From contig NC_061782.1 in the NCBI RefSeq assembly GCF_022458985.1, positions 8,821,672-8,885,671 of the forward strand: a stretch of DNA of 64,000 nucleotides, in the 5' to 3' direction. Made by a program: the position numbers and the translations under genes. This DNA comes from Mugil cephalus. Taxonomy: Eukaryota > Chordata > Actinopteri > Mugiliformes > Mugilidae. Every line of letters starts with the position of its first letter. Within the stretch, counting starts at the first letter, position 1. Below are positions 1-33,821 of this stretch, one piece after another. A model generated the notes under the pieces. That model worked only from the letters and a program-made list of their open reading frames with translations, was not told the origin of the DNA and searched no databases.

Positions 1-154
1 ATAATATAATAAAAGGAGTTGCATTTTGTGGTGACTCCGCTCAGACACTACCAGCCCAGAACATCTGCTCTGGGCAGCACAGACCCAAACACGACTCTTT
101 CGGTCTTAGAACCTGAATAATGTGTAGAAAACCATTGCTTTGCCTACTACAGAC

Positions 155-2811
155 CTGGGCCTTGGAAGCGTTTGATGAATAAGCGAATATTACTGATTCA
201 CTTTCGCTCTCTGGCCTGTTTTGTGACGATGCCTCCTTGGAATCCCTAGAAAAAGTCAACAAAAGATATAAGTAAAGCTTCTCCAATATGCAGTAGATCT
301 TATATAGTTTCCCAGCAATAATATTGAACTCTTCTCTAATGCCAAGTGCCTTACCGTGCAGATGATGATGATGCTGACACTGACGACGATTCGTCATCCT
401 CAGATGCTGTTGACCCAAACGACACCTAATGTGCACAAAAAAGGAGTTTAAGATGAAGTAATTTCATCTCAGCAAAAGCGTCTAATTAGAAAGTGTGCAT
501 TTAAGATGTGGTACCAGCAAGAGATAAACCAGAGATTAACTAACTAATTACAACTTGGTGTTTAGAATTAATCCTTTATTCTTCTAACTCTTCTAGTCTA
601 TGTTTGACAATGGAAAGTGTTAGAACATATTATAATACCTCACTGTCCAAGCTGGACTGTTTCTGAAGAGCAGACCAGGCCAGCTCAGCTGCATGTTGTT
701 CGGCTTCCTTCACAGTCTTACCTTGACCCATGGGGTAATCTTCGTTGTTGATTACTAATTTGCGGAAAAATCTGCATGAGAGAAGGAGGAACTCAGTGGG
801 AAGTGGTGTTTTTTTTAGAATCTGTTCAGATTACAGACATTCAGTCAGACTCACTGAGGATTATGAGCCGGGCCACATCTCTTCGCTTCCAAATACGTAT
901 GAGAGAGGGCTTTTTTCTGACAGTAGTGGTTGATGATTCCTTTGAAATCTGTCTGTGTGAAGCTGTTCTCTTTGAAGTTCACACTCAGTCTTTTGTTCTT
1001 GTCACTGTAATAAACAACCAAGGTTTCACGACAAAGACTCTAAAATGAAATAAATTGTGATTGTGATTCACTCACCAGAGATTAGAAACATTGAGATTTA
1101 CTTCCTCATTTTGCTGACCCGATGCATGGGTGTTTTTTTCATCTTCAGTCTTGAAAGTGGAGAAAGTGCAACTCTGAGATGATGACAGAAGGGCATCTGG
1201 CCTGCTGAGTACATTGTAAGCCTATGGCAGAGTTGATTATGTGCTTCACAACTTACCTCCGCCGTATTATTGCCATGTATCTCATCATACACCAGCTTGG
1301 CTGCTTTCTCCTTAGCTTCTCTCTTCGTCGCTCCTGTGGCCTCGGGATAGTTTTTGTCGCCAACAATAAAGCTGCAGCTTCTAGTATCATAGAAACACTT
1401 ATTAAGTGCCTGTTTTGAAAATGGCAAAGAATAAGGATGTGGTCAAGCCTCTTACGGGATGGCATTGTATAGTCCAGGTCTTGTTGAATCCACCGGCTTT
1501 ATTGTCAAACTGTTCCTCTGACCATATTCATTGAGCCAGCATATGTAGTTGATACTCAGTTGAACTGCAGCCGGAGCTTCTGCAACAGTTCCTGGCTGTT
1601 AAGACATTAGATAAATACACAACAATTAGACATATGCCACTGGTTTGGGATTATTTTTTTCTTTAACATGCATTGAGTTGAGTTAAGCAGATAGGGACAG
1701 TTATCTTACTAAGGCATCTGAGGCTTGAAGTTCATTCTCAGACAAGCCTTTCAGGGCATTTTTGGCTGCATTGGTCTTGGCATCCTTCTTGGTCTTCCCA
1801 TAACCTATGGGATAGGCTTTACCATCTAGGACAGCCCTTTGTTTGAATCTGTAGAGTAATTGTCATAAGTTTGTTAAACACATGATGCAGTTCACCTGAA
1901 ATGAGGAAATAAAGTTGTAGGTGTTGCCTTACAAAAAAAACAAAAAATCAAAACCATAAATGTGTAGCTACAGTACCATTTTCAACCTGGGTGTGGCAGG
2001 ACTGAACTCATCCTCCATTGTGTTGTGGCCACTTTTAGAAAGAATGATTTTCCATGCATGTTGTTTTTAAAGCCTCATTCAGCTGTGCTTACATTCACTA
2101 GATTAAACTGTCCAGCTTGGCTCAAACGATGTGTTTTATGGTCATTCTTACTTCATTTGGGAGTTTAATCCTCACTGTGCAGGACAATGCGTTTAACCTT
2201 ATTGAAATGACTCTGATGAAAGTGAAAGGTTTCAGTCTGAGCTCGGGTGTAGGCCTTAAATTTAAAACCATCAACATGTAACAGATTTGTGACATCAAAA
2301 CTAAAGCCAATCCATCCTAGTCCATCAGGATACAGTATTTACATATATGAAAACTCTTTGTACATTCACTGAAAATTGACTTTCATATAGATTTTAGGAG
2401 ATAATTTGTTTCCAGTAATTGATCTGTACAACAAAGCAGCTATATGTTCAATATATACATTTTTGTTCATTTAGTGCAAATATTTTCTATTATAGGCTAT
2501 TCTTAAAATAACTGCATCACAATCAAGAAATCCTATCTCTTACATAACTAGCTGAGAGTTTCAGCAGGTTATTCCAGTGATGCCATCTAGCCTACTGCTG
2601 TTGAAAGACATGCCTAGAGTGATTTACACCAGGACATATCATTTAATTATGTACACATTTCATCAAAAGTCCACAATAACCACAGGTAAAAGATACCGAC
2701 TCACAGTTTGTTATGATCAAGGCCCTCAGACCCCAGGTCCTTGTACTCCAGCTCAAGTCGGCGTTTCTGTTTATATTCATTTAATCTTGCGACGTAGTTT
2801 CCAGCTTCCAT
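155..2811 (-). CDS. eif2ak2: PKR-like dsRNA-activated eIF2alpha kinase, copy A (5' part; kinase exons outside window)
   Basis: N-terminal half of a PKR gene, the interferon-induced sensor that binds viral dsRNA and phosphorylates eIF2alpha. Exons, in transcript order: 2811-2705 (ATG at 2811-2809), 1848-1710, 1595-1456, 1409-1257, 1149-1076, 1004-855, 771-639, 398-355, 245-155. Exons 1+2 encode dsRBD1 (ends with the typical basic KKDAKTNAAKNAL helix). Exons 3+4 encode a second dsRBD (KREAKEKAAKLVYDEI). Exons 6+7 encode a third (GQGKTVKEAEQHAAELAW). Exons 8-9 are the Ser-rich linker, and exon 9 aligns with copy B exon 7 (SESVIF versus SDSVVL). No kinase exon is in view; the gene must continue left of base 1 if it is whole. 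Exons 3 and 4 do not join in frame and are flanked by phase-0 junctions, so an in-frame product needs both skipped. The 3' end of exon 9 is uncertain. Intron sizes and splice phases otherwise mirror copy B, so this is a tandem paralogue. Confidence 0.85.
1257..1595 (-). other. Extra dsRNA-binding domain exons of copy A (exons 3-4), frame-incompatible
   Basis: Exon 3 (1595-1456) reads phase 0 from its acceptor and ends after ATC CC at a clean GTAAGAGG donor, phase 2. Exon 4 in the dsRBD frame can start only at 1409 or 1397, both phase 0, and ends phase 0 at GAG/GTAAGT. The intron between them would be 46 or 58 nt, below or at the vertebrate minimum. Joining the two exons shifts the frame, and the shifted frame stops in exon 5; retaining the intron gives CCG TAA. 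The protein pattern (INYICWLNEYG ... DKNYPEATGATKREAKEKAAK) is a recognisable dsRBD. Copy B has no visible equivalent between its exons 2 and 3. Either this domain is decaying, or a base is missing from the sequence. Confidence 0.75.
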
Positions 2812-2939
2812 CGCCAGTGGCTCAGTGACAGTGCAAATATCGCAGCAGTTCTCTCTTTATGCTTTCACCTTATTCATACGCTGCACGGTCCGTGAGTGCT
2901 CGCGATCTCATTCGCTTCAGCTGTCTTCAAGTACCCATA

Positions 2940-2951
2940 AGTTTCGATTCC
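2940..2951 (+). promoter_or_regulatory. ISRE-like element upstream of PKR copy A
   Basis: AGTTTCGATTCC matches the ISRE consensus AGTTTCNNTTTC at 11 of 12 positions. It lies 129 bp upstream of the copy A start codon, close to the position of the perfect ISRE of copy B. A second, weaker match in the other orientation is ATAAACGAAACT at 2985-2996, and GGGAAACTAAAC follows near 3044. PKR genes are interferon-induced through such sites; function here is inferred. Confidence 0.6.
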
Positions 2952-3010
2952 TTCGCGTCATAGATCGAGGTTTTCTGGGACCGGATAAACGAAACTGGAA
3001 GTGCGCCGAC

Positions 3011-3032
3011 AAATAAATAAATAAATAAATAA
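3011..3032. repeat. (AAAT)n microsatellite
   Basis: About five perfect AAAT units in the 5' flank of PKR copy A. Confidence 0.9.
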
Positions 3033-3433
3033 TGCAGATACCGGGAAACTAAACGTGCTATAACTCGTGGTGTGTGTTTTTGTCAAAAGGGACCATGTTG
3101 TGCGTACTGAACCTCGCTTTAAAAGCAGTAACTTTCCCCAGGGACTAGGAACTTTAGGAGGTACACAGCGTGTTTCCATCTCAGTGCATAGTTAGAGACA
3201 TCTCTGTGTAAGTGTGCACATGGCAGAATGCTTTGATCGGAATTCAAGGGGCATCGACGTCACTGCCGCCCGAGGCCACGCCCACTGAGTGGCAAAAACA
3301 TGGTAACAGTGAATACAGCGAGACAGGGATATTTAAAATATGGATTATCAGACAACTGGACTCGAAAATGATCCATACGAACTGGTACAGATTTGAAAAC
3401 GTGGATTAGCCTCAGTATTTGTTAGTTTTAGTT

Positions 3434-3560
3434 CATTTCAGTTATGATAAGTGTAGCTAAATAAAAGATGCTAATGCTAAGTGCTTTAAGAAGTAACTTA
3501 GGGTATGTCTACATACATAATTCAATTAATATTACCTGACACAGACATTACCTGTAAGCT
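3434..3560 (+). repeat. Interspersed repeat, unnamed family (copy 1)
   Basis: The stretch from TTTCAGTTATGATAAGTGTA through the GCTAATGCTAAG motif is nearly repeated at 49,937-50,010, and the following part (AAGAAGTAACTTAGGGT...TATTACCTGACAC) matches 50,167-50,245. The family is not recognised. The rest of 2,812-5,142 holds the copy A promoter and the copy B 3' flank; I see no further gene in it. Confidence 0.6.
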
Positions 3561-4094
3561 AGTGTTAGGACCCCGGAACAAAAACATCCAAGAAAGCTGG
3601 TGGCAGAAGAAGGTAAACAGACCGGTAGAAGAACCCATGGACATACACTGTACTATTATCCATCAAATTTTGAATTTCCCCAATAGGGATCATTAAAGCA
3701 TTATCTTCTTTATATATAACACACTTTACATTTGAAGGACAAAACAACACCTGAACCTATGCTTGGTTCTTCTTATGTAGCTACGACTTAGACCCATAAC
3801 TTACTTTAGCAGTTAATGTTATATATATGTTTGACAGTGATAAATAATTTAGGAATAACATGGCCTACTTAGTACAATTACATACAGTGGCTGATATCTA
3901 AATGTCACTTTCATCATCTTACTGATGTCTTACTAACAAAAACATATTTTGGTAATACTAAGCTAGTTTAATAGCTTTACATCAACATCATACATCAAAT
4001 TCGACACATTCATAACAGTTAAATAACATAAAACATATTCTTCTCACTTGTGAAAAGGTCTGTATATGTTGTTGTTGTTGTTTATTATATGATA

Positions 4095-4180
4095 CAATAC
4101 GTCAACCAGAAAGGGGGCCGTATTGTCCACTGACAAGACACATAGCTCTGCCTAGTGTGTAGGAGGACATAACATGTAAA
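4095..4180 (+). repeat. Partial copy of the element seen at 20,886-21,393
   Basis: AACCAGAAAGGGGGCCGTATT and the following AAGACACATA...AGGAGGACAT correspond to AACCAGAAGGGGGCTGTATT and AAAGACACATA...GGAGGACATG near 21,260-21,352. Only this inner portion is recognisable here. Confidence 0.5.
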
Positions 4181-4944
4181 CTGTTAAAAGGACCGCGGTC
4201 AGAAGGTCTATAAAAACTTTACAGATTCATTATTTTGTTAATACTTGTTTCTGCATAAAACCCTTAAATAACTTCAGCCTCTTCAAAACTATCAAACATT
4301 CAATCATGATGAGGATTTTTACCGGCATTTTGAAATGCCAGCTTGATTACTTGATGTCTCGTTGTTATTTATGAACAAAAAGTTACAGTAAAAGGTTTTT
4401 TGGAGGTCGATATTTTTATCCATAGCTCGTCACACACTGAATGTGCTCACAAACTTTCTGCTCTTGCATCACATGGTTTCTCATTTTGATATTGTCTAGT
4501 CTTAGCAGGTTGCTGCATGTCACAACCAACACTCTTCAGGAAACTTTTATTAACAGAGTGGAATAGTTTCAGTTGAAAGTCCTCACACAGATGTTGCTAC
4601 CACACCGAAGTTTTGATTTTAACCTCTTCCTGGCTCCTGACATTCATTAGATCTGCATTTGACCTTTTCTGTGAATTTTGACCTGGCAGGTATATAGATT
4701 CACTCAAAGGTGTATGTGCATGCATTAATCAGACGTTCAAAGGTCGTGTAACCTGTAGCTAAATATGAATTCCCGAATAACTACCTTGTGAATCAATACC
4801 AATATCATCCAGAACAAACATTTGGTAAGTTTCTTGAACTAGGACAGAAGTTGTTTATTTATTACCAACTTCCGTTCATCTTTACTTAAACACGGTTGGC
4901 ATACAATAAATTATTTAACCCAGTAATAAACAAGACCATGATTA

Positions 4945-4950
4945 TTTATT
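4945..4950 (-). terminator. Candidate poly(A) signal of PKR copy B
   Basis: AATAAA on the minus strand about 195 nt after the copy B stop codon. Another lies at 4854-4859. Which is used cannot be told from sequence. Confidence 0.45.
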
Positions 4951-5142
4951 ATAGTGAATAATGTCATGATGTATTCACCGATTCAAAAATTAAATAAGTT
5001 TTTTTTTCCATCCCAGCACATACTAAATAATCCAGATACAGGATGTCAGTTCATGAAAGCAGCCATTAAAAAAGTAACTTCAAGGTATTATGGTGGTTAA
5101 GACAGAATTAATGCTAACCATTTTTGCATTTCCTTGTAGCAA

Positions 5143-8100
5143 TCACACAGTACTCCTATTTTTAAGCACTGTAAGTATATGTTTGCACTCTTCCAGGTCC
5201 GCCTTTAGTTTGCTTGCTTCCGGTCGGTCCTCTGGTTTCACATGCAGCATTGACCTTATCATTTGGTTCTGCAACAAGACAAAGAACAGCTAGCATGATC
5301 TCAATAATCTCCTGAAGTCCAAGCAGCACAAGAACTGTATTTCCCACAAAATTACCTTTTTTCCCAAAAGGTCACATGTCCTGCTTAATACTTGATATTT
5401 TCTTTCAGACATCCATGTCTAATACTCTTTTTGTGACCATTACTAGTGGTTGTCAGCCAGTGAAATAATAAATTAAATAAATACTAATTTACCTCTTCAT
5501 GGAAATGTTGTGAAAATGCTTTAGGAAGTGTCTGCTTTCTGGCATCCTCCCAAATCTGATAAAAGAAAAGAGAAAAGAGCCTTTAACACAACCAATAGAC
5601 TCTCCAGTATTCATGCTTTGTTTTGTTCTCACAGCATAGTATTACAAAGTTAAACCAAGTTCTAGGTGTTTTGGGGGGTCTAACAGGCTGATGGCAAACC
5701 AGCCAACAGATGCATTTGTACAACCTGACATGTGCGTTTAATACCCCCTCATCTGGCACGATACTGTAAGTAATGTCCTGTAACATGTGTTGGGCTATGA
5801 TTTTTAAAGCCAGTAGTTTGTGCAAGTTTCTCCTTAAATGTGTGACGCACTTGTCAAGAATGAAGACATTAACCATGGCTCAATGAGGCCATTTGAGAAA
5901 CTACAGCTGTTGCCATTTGCCTGTTGGCTTGATTTTTCAGACCTGGGGATTGGTTGCCACATGGTATTCAGTCATCAGTCATCATGACTGAACCAACCTG
6001 GGGTGTGTTTATACTTGAATGACACTGTAAAGAGCTACAAACCTGAATGGCTCATTCAGACACGTTTTAAAAGCAATGAAAAAGCAGGTTTTGCATGATA
6101 TGATTTGCTGTCTGCCAAGTAAAAATCATAGCCGGAGCGACCCAAAAGATATTAAAACCGTATGGACGTTAGAGCTGCATGAAAAAATCTTGACCTCGAT
6201 TCACACATACACGTGACCTCATTTCGAGACACAATGATTCTTACGCATTTTATTTCACGAGCGGCATCACAAACAAATGCCCCCATTTCTTCACGGATTT
6301 TTTCAAAGTAGCACTGACGCTGACTCCTCCCTCAACCTATGGGAAAGCGTCTTATTCCGTCAGTTCAGTCTGCAGTTCAATGTGTGGAAACAGTGAGGAG
6401 AAGAGAGAAGTCAGTGGTAAAGAGAGTTAAATGGATGGAGAAGAAACCCAGGTGGTAGTGGAGGGAGTCCCCCACAGAGTTAAAGTTCATCAGTGCAATA
6501 AACATTTTGTAAAAAAGAATCGTGTCAAATAATCGTGATCTCAATTCTAAACAAAAAAATCGTGATTCACATTTTTTCGTGCAGCCCTAATGGACGTGAT
6601 CTTAAATGAGTTCCAAAATGGAGGCTGAGATAGTCATAAAGTCAGTCAGTGGACTAATAAACTTGCCACAACTTTACTGTGCAGGTACATGAGTCATAGG
6701 TATGCTTAGTGTTAAAACTAACAGAACTCCACCCTTGCTGACTGTGACGCATCATGTTTTGAGGAAATGCAAACCTATTGGCATATGATATATTTTTCTG
6801 CTACTTAAACAAATACTTGTAACACCAAGGATGATTTTGGAACGTGTTTTTGAACCACTCACTACTTCACTCTCAGGGCCTACGAGATTCCAAAGGAGTT
6901 CAAAATAAATCAGCCCCATAGCGTAGATGTCCACTTTTTGGTCGTAAGTCTTCTTGCTCTTCTGTCATAAAAGAACACAATACAGCGACACTAGTGACTA
7001 AAATGTCCACAGATACCTTTCATTTAATATTTAGTTAATAGGTAATGTCTGCATCGCTGCTCTCACCTGCTCAGGAGCCATGTAAGACGGGGTTCCTTTG
7101 TACGCAGTCCTCTCAATCAAGTTCTCGGCATCGTCATCATTTTCTGCAGTGACCAGCCCAAAGTCTCCGATCTTCACTTTTCCATCTTGACCAAATAATA
7201 TGTTGGCCGGCTAAACATGGAAAAACAATAAATAAACACTTCATGGCTTATTAACAATAGTGTATTTAAAAAATATATTTTTAACATAATTTGTCTCACT
7301 TTCAGGTCTCTGTGGATGAACTTCTTAGAATGAATGTACTCTACGCCACTTAACAATTGCTGGGCAATGTCCAAGCTTTCCTCTCTCCTCTTGAAGTTTC
7401 GCAGGGATTTCTTTTCATTCTGAGTATTCTTCTCGTCTATCCACACTCTTAGAGTTTTGGTGTCACACAGCTCCATCTGAATGTAAAGGTACTTTACAGA
7501 TGCATCACTGTAAGAACAGCAAGAGAAAGGCAAATGGTGATATAACTCTTGTCTTTATAAAATAAGTAGCTCAATAGAAAGGATGAGGCTTACTTGAAGT
7601 ACTCCAACTGTTCATTGAAATGTCGCACTGGTACCCTTTATCATCCATCCAACAGGTGTGGTATCGAACAATGTTGCAGTGGGTGAGGTCTGACAAGGCC
7701 AACACCTCTCGAACAGCTTTTCTAATCCACAAGAGTAACAGAAAATGACGAGTTAATAAAACCTTAGTTTTATTTCATAAAAACACTGTGAAGTAATGGG
7801 AAGAAATTAAATGTTTTTTAATACTTGGCTTACTTTTTGTCGAGGACAATCTTTACAGCATAAAACCTCTGCGCGAGATTATGTCGTGCCTTGAAAACTT
7901 TACCGAAGGTTCCTTTTCCGAGGAGCTCTATGCAGTCAAAGTCTAATTCAAACCTATAGAAGTATATTTTTGGCAAAAAAATCAAAATATGACAAAGCTT
8001 TTTAATTCAAATATTATATACACAGGCATAAGATTATGACCGCCTTCCTAATATTGTGTAGATCTCTCTTGTGCCTCCAAAACTGTTGTGACTCATCAGA

Positions 8101-11100
8101 GAATGGACATGGACACTCAGGGTGTCCTGTGGTGTCCTATGGGTTGAGGGGAGATCCTTTGTGAATCAGACTTGTTCCAGCGCATCCCACAGATACTTGA
8201 TCAGTTTGGTATCTAGTGAATTTAGAGGTTTGTGTGGGTTTTTGTGGCTGCTGCCATGAGTGTCATTGCTATGTGGTGGGGGTGTCTGGGATATGTCAGG
8301 TCCAAACGTTTCCTAGCAGAACACTACATTGTCACAAGATGGTGACAAAGTCAATAAATTGACCTGTCAGTGGATTTAATGTTATGGCTGATTCTGATCG
8401 GTGTATATATACAGCATACGTAAATAAATTACCAATGACTGAACTAATGATTTAATTTAATTTTCTTACCTTGTGAGGACTGGTTGGGTTGTCGTTTTCT
8501 TGCTTTGACTAACTGCTGGACTCTTGGTACTGAAATTGACTGTATCCTTAATGAAAGTGATAATATAGAAGTTAATATGCAGTATTAGGCATGACCCATC
8601 AAAATGAACTTGCATGGTCTGGTCTTAATTTACCTCTTTGCTTTGGTGAGCATTTTTGAAATTTGCTGCAAGTCTAACAAACAAAACAAAGAAAAGTATA
8701 ATTGATAATAACATCTACTAAAATATTATGTAGTGGGTGTGAAAAGACGGCTTACTTTATTTTGGGCTTTCCGTCAGGACTTTGAACCTTTATAATGGAA
8801 AGTAGAGAAAAAAATTCATTACAAGCCGAAAAAGTTCTATTTTACTTCCTGGTCATCGAAAGAATCTCGGGACAATCTCCGGTCAACAAGTGCAGCTGCC
8901 ACTAAGTCTCAGTGCTAGTGATGATCCAGTGACCAATTTCCTATGCTCTTATCTCTTGTTAAGAAACTCAAAAAAAATTGCTGTTGTTCACATGAAACCA
9001 GGAACTCCTACGTTTTCTAGACCAAGATTTCACAGGAGGAATTGATAAGCAGAATCAGTAATGGCATCAGCATCAGTAAAATCTTATCAGTGCCCATCCC
9101 CATCTATGACGGTGTTAAAGGTGCTTATGTTTTACAGTGTTTTCTAGTTAGGAAGTTGGATCTTGTGAGTTTATGTAAATTAAAACCAATTGGTATCATT
9201 TCTACAATAATGTGGACATTACAACCTGAAGAGTTGTGGCAGCGTTAGGTGCATACATTACAAATAACACACCTGATTCTGTAGAGGTCTTTGGGTGAAT
9301 TGGTTAAAACAACAGAGTCGCTTGTAGATACTGGAATGCTTGATCCTCGACCGGAGTCCCTTGGAGAATATGATAATGCACATTAGGAGAATACTCTCAA
9401 CATTAAACCATCTGTCATATGGCTCAGTCAGCGCCTTACGGTGTGCTTGACAGTGCTGACTTCTTGGGTGTTGCACCATTATCAGCTGACCGGACACTAA
9501 CCTGAAAACACAAAGGATAGGCTTGGTCACTACCATAGTTTGTAGTGACTGATGCTGTTTGGTAACGGGGTGCAACATTAGCCTAACAAGCATTTATTTT
9601 CATTTTTGCAGTTTGATGTTTAAAATGACCTCTCCTGTTTCCAATAAGTGGCTCTTTAATAAGGTCACGGTAACATCAAATTCAAATGTATAAGGCAGTT
9701 GTTACAAGATGTTTTAAAGCTGCGGCACCTTATTTTTTCCCTCAGAGTCAAATTTAAATTGTTTCATTTCTGAGAGTTATATCAGCAAATGACAACAATG
9801 GGGTATTTACTTCCTGATTCCATTTGGAAGAAGTATGAAAACTAGACGTACCAAAATACAGGTTTTGAGGCTATAAGACCAACATGCTGAACATTATGCA
9901 TGCAGGTCTCAATATTCACACCTTCGAATGACTAAAGCAACACCTATGAAGCTGGCCCATAATTGCTGTAGGAACTCTAAAAGTTTGTGTGGATGATTAA
10001 GTAGTAGTTTTCAGGCACTGTGCATTTATGTGATAAGAATGTCGGTTCGGTCAGTGCTGCTTCACACAAGAGGAGCCAATGTGGGAGTCACTCTAATTTT
10101 TGATATCAGAAGAATAGAAATTCTTAAATACCTTGCTGTCCCAGTCAGACTGTTCCTGAAGCGCAGACCAGGCCAGCTGAGCTGCATTTTGCTTGGCTTC
10201 CTTCACAGTCTTACCTTCACCTACGGGGTATTCTTTGTCGTCAATTACTAATTTGTAGAAAAATCTGCAAGACGCAAGAATGAATTGTGTAAAGATTACA
10301 CTCTCGTAACAGGTAAGTATTTATTTTTTTTAGGTTTTTTAGTTCAGTCAAACTCACTGAGGATTATGCGGCGGGCCACATCTCCTGTCTTCAAGAAATT
10401 TAGGCAAGCGACTTGTTTTCTGACAGTAGTGGTTGACAAGTCCTATGAAATTTGCGTCTGTACAACCACTGTCCTTCACAGCCAAGCTGCTTATCTGATC
10501 ACTGCAGCAAGAAAGACATAAACTTATTAAAACTTTTAATAATCAATCAGAGCTAAAGTTAAACAGTAGTTTACATACAGTGTCATAGTGAAGAAGAATA
10601 TTGCTCGGCCTGTATTTTTGCTCACCAGAGATTGGACACATTCAAGTCTTGTTTTTGTTGTTCTGATGTGTCCTTGCATGTCTCGTCTCCAGTCTGAGAA
10701 CACAACAATATGGGAGTAGAATCAGTGACAGTAGAGATGTCTTTGTGTGCTGAGCTGGTGCAGTAGTAGAAGCTTCATGTGCATTTTCTGTCTCTCAATA
10801 AAACAACAAATGGTGCATCAACACAAATTTTCACACATATAGAGAGTAAAATTTGAAACAAAATCATCTTACAGATTCAGATGGTTCCTCCAACAAGCTT
10901 GTCAAAGCATTTTTAGCCGCATTCTGCCTGGCTTCCTTCTTGTTCTTCCCCACACCAACTTTATAGACCTTATCATTCAGAACGACTCTTATGGAGAATC
11001 TGTAAGTGAAATGCGCTTTGTTATACAGACGAGACAATTAATCTGTTTCATTTTGTTTTGGGACCGTACAAAAATTTTAATGACAGTCTGGAAAAGTCAA

Positions 11101-11876
11101 AAAGATAAGATTATACTTTGATGATCCTCTCTCGGTACAATTGACAGCACTGGGACTAAGAAGAGTAAATTAAAACACATCAGTAACTTAGCGTACTGAA
11201 AAAGAAGAAGACTTGAATAGCAGAAACTAAAATAATTAGTTTTAATTTGTATAGTTGGGATACAGTTTGTTCACTGAGTTGTGAAAACAACATGCTACAA
11301 AAAGAACTGCATGCAGCCTGGGGACACCGGATAGCAAAAGTGCAAGTAATATTAATAATACTTTTTTGTTTTTACTTTTTTTTCTGCATTTATATGACAG
11401 CAGCAGGTACTTCTTATATACTAGAGAGTGGGACTTAAAAAAACCTATCATGATATGATAGGATACAACATGTATGCATGTTTGCATACCGGTATTAATT
11501 CATCAGTAATAATAATTCAGAAGTATAGCATGGACACTAACCGAGCCTATTTTGGTGTGTAACTGATATTTTTTCATTATTGCTACTTTTACTTTAACTA
11601 AAATACCTGGGCACTTCTTACACCTTTGACTGGTGTCTCCAAACGTATGTGACATAGTAGATAATCACGTTTAACTCCTACAGGCTATTTTCCAAGTCAA
11701 AACAAGACCCCACACGTCTCCATTTCCTAAGTTTTGGAGCATGACTTTGCAAAAATTAGTCCAACTTACGTTTTAATGTGATCGGGGCCAACAGATCCAA
11801 CCTCCTCAAATTTCAAATCTAGTCGTTCTTTCTGTGCATGCTCGTTCAGTTTAGCAACGAAGTTTTCCGATTCCAT
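5143..11876 (-). CDS. eif2ak2: PKR, dsRNA-activated eIF2alpha kinase, copy B (complete locus, one phase error)
   Basis: Exons: 11876-11770, 10999-10873, 10693-10626, 10501-10358, 10264-10132, 9501-9440, 9359-9273, 8779-8756, 8673-8634, 8546-8470, 7953-7834, 7721-7594, 7507-7300, 7210-7067, 6961-6863, 5555-5493, 5268-5143. dsRBD1 is exons 1-2; the second dsRBD is exons 4-5; exons 6-10 are a Ser/Thr-rich linker. The kinase starts about residue 291: glycine loop GKGTFGKV, beta-3 lysine in FYAVKIV, HRDLKPANIL, DFG, then [15 protein letters not shown] holding two Thr at the positions of the human activation-loop sites, and EDRP near the C-terminus. It acts in the cytosol as the antiviral translation shut-off kinase. 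Exon lengths sum to 1,757 nt, one short of 586 codons: exon 12 ends phase 1 but exon 13 reads from phase 2. All other junctions agree. Exon 8 is a 24-nt microexon. Confidence 0.9.
6170..6589. mobile_element. hAT-type non-autonomous transposon (420 bp) with 8-bp target duplication
   Basis: Terminal inverted repeats: TAGAGCTGCATGAAAAAAT at the left, and the right end read in reverse is TAGGGCTGCACGAAAAAAT. It is flanked on both sides by the identical 8-bp duplication ATGGACGT (6162-6169 and 6590-6597), the hallmark of hAT insertion. No transposase ORF. It sits in intron 15 of PKR copy B. Confidence 0.92.
8019..8407. mobile_element. Short inverted-repeat transposon relic, ACACCGATCAG family (copy 1)
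   Basis: The left end contains GGCATAAGATTATGACC, and the right end read in reverse gives ATACACCGATCAGAATCAG then CCATAAC. The body (CCTTCCTAATATTGTGTAG, then TGTCCTGTGG, then CACAAACC in the reverse sense) matches 34,733-35,279. TA-rich ends. No coding capacity. It lies in intron 10 of PKR copy B. Confidence 0.8.

Positions 11877-15794: not shown

Positions 15795-33821
<18,027 letters not shown>

Follow-up and report, generated by a model that had tools for sequence, protein, structure and literature searches.

Tandem PKR genes are a known feature of fish genomes: in Tetraodon, PKR1-3 form a head-to-tail triplet, and fish PKRs carry one to three dsRNA-binding domains (dsRBDs) (PMC2291453). 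Vertebrate assemblies, in turn, contain spurious short indels within coding exons, so that genes seem broken (PMC9516821), and the fish work in PMC10051318 concerns made knock-outs. The locus described here resembles Tetraodon PKR1-3 in having three head-to-tail copies with varying dsRBD number, a kinase domain of seven exons and a kinase insert coded by two exons (PMC2291453). It differs in that one of the three copies, copy C, lacks one base at the junction within the insert. Triplets of tandem PKR genes have been described in fish before, and the finding is ordinary unless reads reveal a real allele. Judged from the assembled letters, the reading we place first, at slightly short of an even chance, is that the missing base was lost in the assembled sequence and that the real copy C reads through in frame.

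The array occupies C13:8809819-8833547, that is, the left flank and positions 1-11876 of the window (the whole 64,000-nucleotide stretch analysed). The number of dsRBDs is about two in C (by Pfam) and about three in B and one in A (both by eye on gene-finder output). Copy C had earlier been called the only complete PKR kinase, which is true inside the window but not of the array, as two further kinase regions are found past the left edge of the window, at distances of about 1 and 9 kb.

Coordinates of the features discussed (window positions unless a contig is named; donor bits from a simple vertebrate matrix)
Feature	Position	Strand	Remarks
PKR (EIF2AK2-like) copy C	5143..11876	minus	17 coding exons; hand-set exon model
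Exon 12 (kinase exon K2)	7594..7721	minus	128 nt; phase 2 in, phase 1 out; CAA/GTAAGC
Exon 13 (K3)	7300..7507	minus	carries HRDLK; needs phase 2
Native donor GTAAGC	7588..7593	minus	strong, 8.0 bits
Cryptic donor GTACCA	7629..7634	minus	frame-restoring; weak, 1.3 bits
Cryptic donor GTGCGA	7623..7628	minus	frame-restoring; weak, 2.0 bits
Most probable lost-base stretch	7594..7621	minus	final 28 nt of exon 12, in the kinase insert
dsRBD half of paralogue B	639..2811	minus	start codon read by eye
Paralogue B kinase exons	C13:8820639-8817900	same orientation as C	left of window
Paralogue A kinase exons	C13:8812676-8809819	same orientation as C	left of window
Clustered protocadherin exons L016-L025	G000:C5:12.05-12.54 Mb		short frames

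The exon boundaries of copy C were hand-picked, and all 16 introns of the resulting model begin with GT and end with AG. Two dsRBDs and the beginning of the kinase lie in the first part of the gene, the remaining kinase in the second. Pfam dsrm matched in two stretches (E 2.5e-35), as expected for the N-terminal dsRNA-binding domains of PKR, and Pfam Pkinase matched as well. Against the PDB, all five matches of the kinase N-lobe part at E 1e-12 or better were PKR chains, while the C-lobe part gave nine matches at E 1e-25 or better (five PKR, three PERK, one GCN2), the top one being PERK; these matches identify a kinase domain of the eIF2-alpha-kinase type. The seven kinase exons (exons 11-17) with their beta4/beta5 insert agree with the organization in PMC2291453, and the only departure is that the kinase does not run in a single continuous frame, which breaks at exon 12/13. 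An assignment to PKZ was discarded, dsrm being present and no Z-alpha match being listed at E 0.001. Copy C is thus a PKR gene, but the letters as they stand encode an incomplete PKR. We judge it from sequence to be a candidate antiviral eIF2-alpha kinase gene, which would have been functional until recently and appears intact apart from one base. A small gene finder recovered 16 of the 17 exons, with the last exon, beyond the stretch supplied, missing; it gave exon 12 a cryptic donor, made exon 1 one base longer and added two spurious exons. Its training set included these very PKR exons, so this agreement is not independent proof of the model.

Intron phases agree at 15 of the 16 junctions of copy C, the sole exception being exon 12/13 (7594/7507). 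Spliced literally, this junction reads ...STS-MMHL-stop, the stop being the fifth codon past STS and lying ahead of HRDLK and DFG. The rebuilt 17-exon model therefore reproduces what the sequence-only reading had reported, namely a one-nucleotide clash, a coding sequence of 1,757 nt and a stop before HRDLK/DFG. A phase-2 intron at this place in both paralogues makes chance an insufficient explanation of the clash: in A and B the exons flanking the matching intron both call for phase 2, and neither kinase frame is interrupted. The matching exon measures 129 nt in A and 99 nt in B. The same reading had put the clash in a fast-evolving insert, in line with an A-C identity of 68/87 before the first cryptic donor and 22/38 after it. 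Aligned without a gap, A and C share 91 of the 128 exon positions, and a single 1-nt gap raises this to 92; its main effect is to bring the donor and the intron into register, with 12 of the first 13 intron bases then agreeing. As a separate observation, the exon 13 acceptor of C lies, by eye, 9 nt downstream of the A/B acceptor (7507-7516). An exonic AG seems to have turned acceptor there, with three codons lost in frame and the phase unchanged.

The missing base probably belongs to the final ~28 nt of exon 12. PDB chains of PKR show similarity in frame as far as GYQCD (near 7622), the alignment confidence being low over the last residues, and the gene finder, when frameshifts are cheap, sets the lesion at 7618. 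In a single-gap scan against A, 11 gap positions between exon offsets 106 and 128 gave at most one match fewer than the optimum. With so many near-equal placements, the scan does not single out the donor as the site of the loss; the dropped G at AAG-GTAAGC that had been suggested fits, but is just one among many placements fitting about equally. By codon position, the exon tail is identical to A at 7/13, 7/12 and 8/13 sites, with no pattern.

Of the three options originally listed, a one-base loss, whether null allele or dropped base, stood up to the analysis, while a shifted splice site did not. Under the assembly reading, a consensus error would have dropped one base from the end of exon 12, within the beta4-beta5 insert. 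The lesion site has no long homopolymer, which counts against such an error, and the false frameshifts in PMC9516821 were shown with reads, whereas the case of copy C is drawn from the assembled sequence. In favour of an error, the assembly carries frame breaks in other coding exons. Among the 150 cadherin matches listed there are at least 69 clustered protocadherin frames, 10 of these 69 being shorter than 780 aa. In seven of the ten, long open frames fall in different frames; similarity supports the different frames in L017, L022, L023, L024 and partly L018, and is lacking in L019 and L025. Plain in-frame stops occur in L020 and L021, L016 is mixed, and single-base gaps relative to near-identical neighbours appear in L016, L017, L018 and L023. 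Consensus errors in repeats could account for the protocadherin breaks, but so could real pseudo-exons, and the latter possibility weakens the support that they lend to an assembly error.

Outside the clusters, no frame change between adjoining matches was found among the 80 matches listed in 41 non-clustered cadherin frames, which is weak evidence. In the neighbouring gene, the gene finder predicted 49 exons (6,813 nt) at a penalty of -14 and 48 (6,550 nt) at -10, some of them spurious, and placed no frameshift in either set; it placed one at -8.4 and at -7, and four at -6. Paralogue A gave none in 21 exons at -14 and -7, and paralogue B none in 27 exons at -14 and one at -7. These zeros are likewise weak evidence, because at -10 and stricter the audit takes a cryptic donor in copy C and so passes over the lesion there. 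A GPCR search was left out as a frame-break audit: its list is confined to the best-scoring candidates and is biased towards intact genes. The assembly audits are therefore weak both ways, and error and real deletion remain close. If the base was lost in assembly, automatic annotation may create a spurious short insert at this site, as the frame-keeping gene finder did.

A real and recent one-base deletion, leaving C as a null or dsRBD-only allele tolerated beside intact A and B, is a serious possibility to which we give appreciably less than an even chance. With the letters correct and the native donor in use, the product would have 376 residues and end short of the catalytic loop; because four exon junctions follow the stop, the native-spliced mRNA would be expected to undergo nonsense-mediated decay. 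The open kinase frames of A and B are compatible with this, as C could then be redundant, and so are the at least two PKR alleles and nine PKZ alleles reported in zebrafish (PMC2291453). On the other hand, such a deletion must be young, given the absence of a second lesion and of any sign of relaxed constraint, and allele status cannot come from a single reference sequence. No other stop or frame break was found in the modelled exons of C, and pairwise dN/dS over the kinase was 0.32 (A-B), 0.30 (A-C) and 0.21 (B-C), rough values with dS high. Given no further lesion, a simple neutral clock, for which the indel rate was assumed, puts the divergence since loss below about 1.3% neutral. An old or decaying pseudogene was accordingly rejected, with one lesion alone and no sign of relaxed constraint. 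Genome-wide, no retrocopy or second haplotype of exon 12 was found: a DNA search with the exon returned the exon itself and paralogue A, and a protein search the three PKR copies and three weak matches. If real, the lesion would make C a naturally broken antiviral kinase beside two intact copies and hence a probe of tandem PKR redundancy. We consider it unlikely that a segregating or fixed one-base change has left, under virus-driven selection, either a natural null alongside the two intact copies or a kinase whose insert is shortened by splicing.

Still less probable, though not negligible, is a splice shift in which a cryptic donor at 7634 or 7628 is used and a working kinase with an insert of 9 or 11 residues results. 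Both cryptic donors that had been proposed are present and in frame (AGG/GTACCA and CCA/GTGCGA, respectively), and the frame-keeping gene finder picks the one at 7628. The coding score of the exon tail, 0.53 nats in the native frame versus 3.17 in another, also speaks weakly and slightly against the native frame. Zebrafish PKZ offers a parallel, as the length of its beta4-beta5 insert is altered by splicing, to 15 residues at minimum; PKZ, however, skips whole exons, whereas copy C would have to rely on a weak cryptic donor, a route that is not supported (PMC2291453). Donors were scored with a simple vertebrate donor matrix and a locally fitted one. By the simple matrix, 17 of the 28 used donors in the array score below native GTAAGC (itself among the 28), the weakest used donor reaches 3.2 bits, and both cryptic donors fall under all 28; by the fitted matrix, the native donor reaches 9.18 and the cryptic donors, 35-41 nt away from it, -1.05 and 4.14. 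The predicted inserts would also be shorter than those of either paralogue, since between the landmarks CW and KYLYI there are 16 residues in B, 26 in A (by hand) and 23 in native C; they would likewise fall below the reported PKR range of 14-34 residues, for which the landmarks may differ from ours (PMC2291453). With frameshifts allowed, the gene finder returns to the native donor plus lesion somewhere between penalties of 10 and 6 nats; interpolation puts the switch at about 8.4. Within this small model, a lesion would be favoured if one-base lesions exceed about one per 570 kb (128 nt x e^8.4).

Other in-frame escapes are very improbable: exon 12 skipping (exon 11 ends in phase 2) and an upstream acceptor at 7547 both preserve the frame, but the former would remove the alphaC helix and beta4 residues and so leave no active kinase, and the latter requires a 46-nt intron with few pyrimidines ahead of the acceptor. 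Read-through into the intron past the native donor was also rejected, its eighth codon being a stop.

Concerning the surroundings, a search for inverted repeats of at least 14 nt at 6100-6650, as for a possible transposon, found none. The PKR array is adjoined by a long multi-exon gene on the plus strand (15798-33776), tentatively named GCN1, a regulator of the eIF2-alpha kinase GCN2. A PDB search with this gene matched Importin-4 alone, which does not confirm that name.
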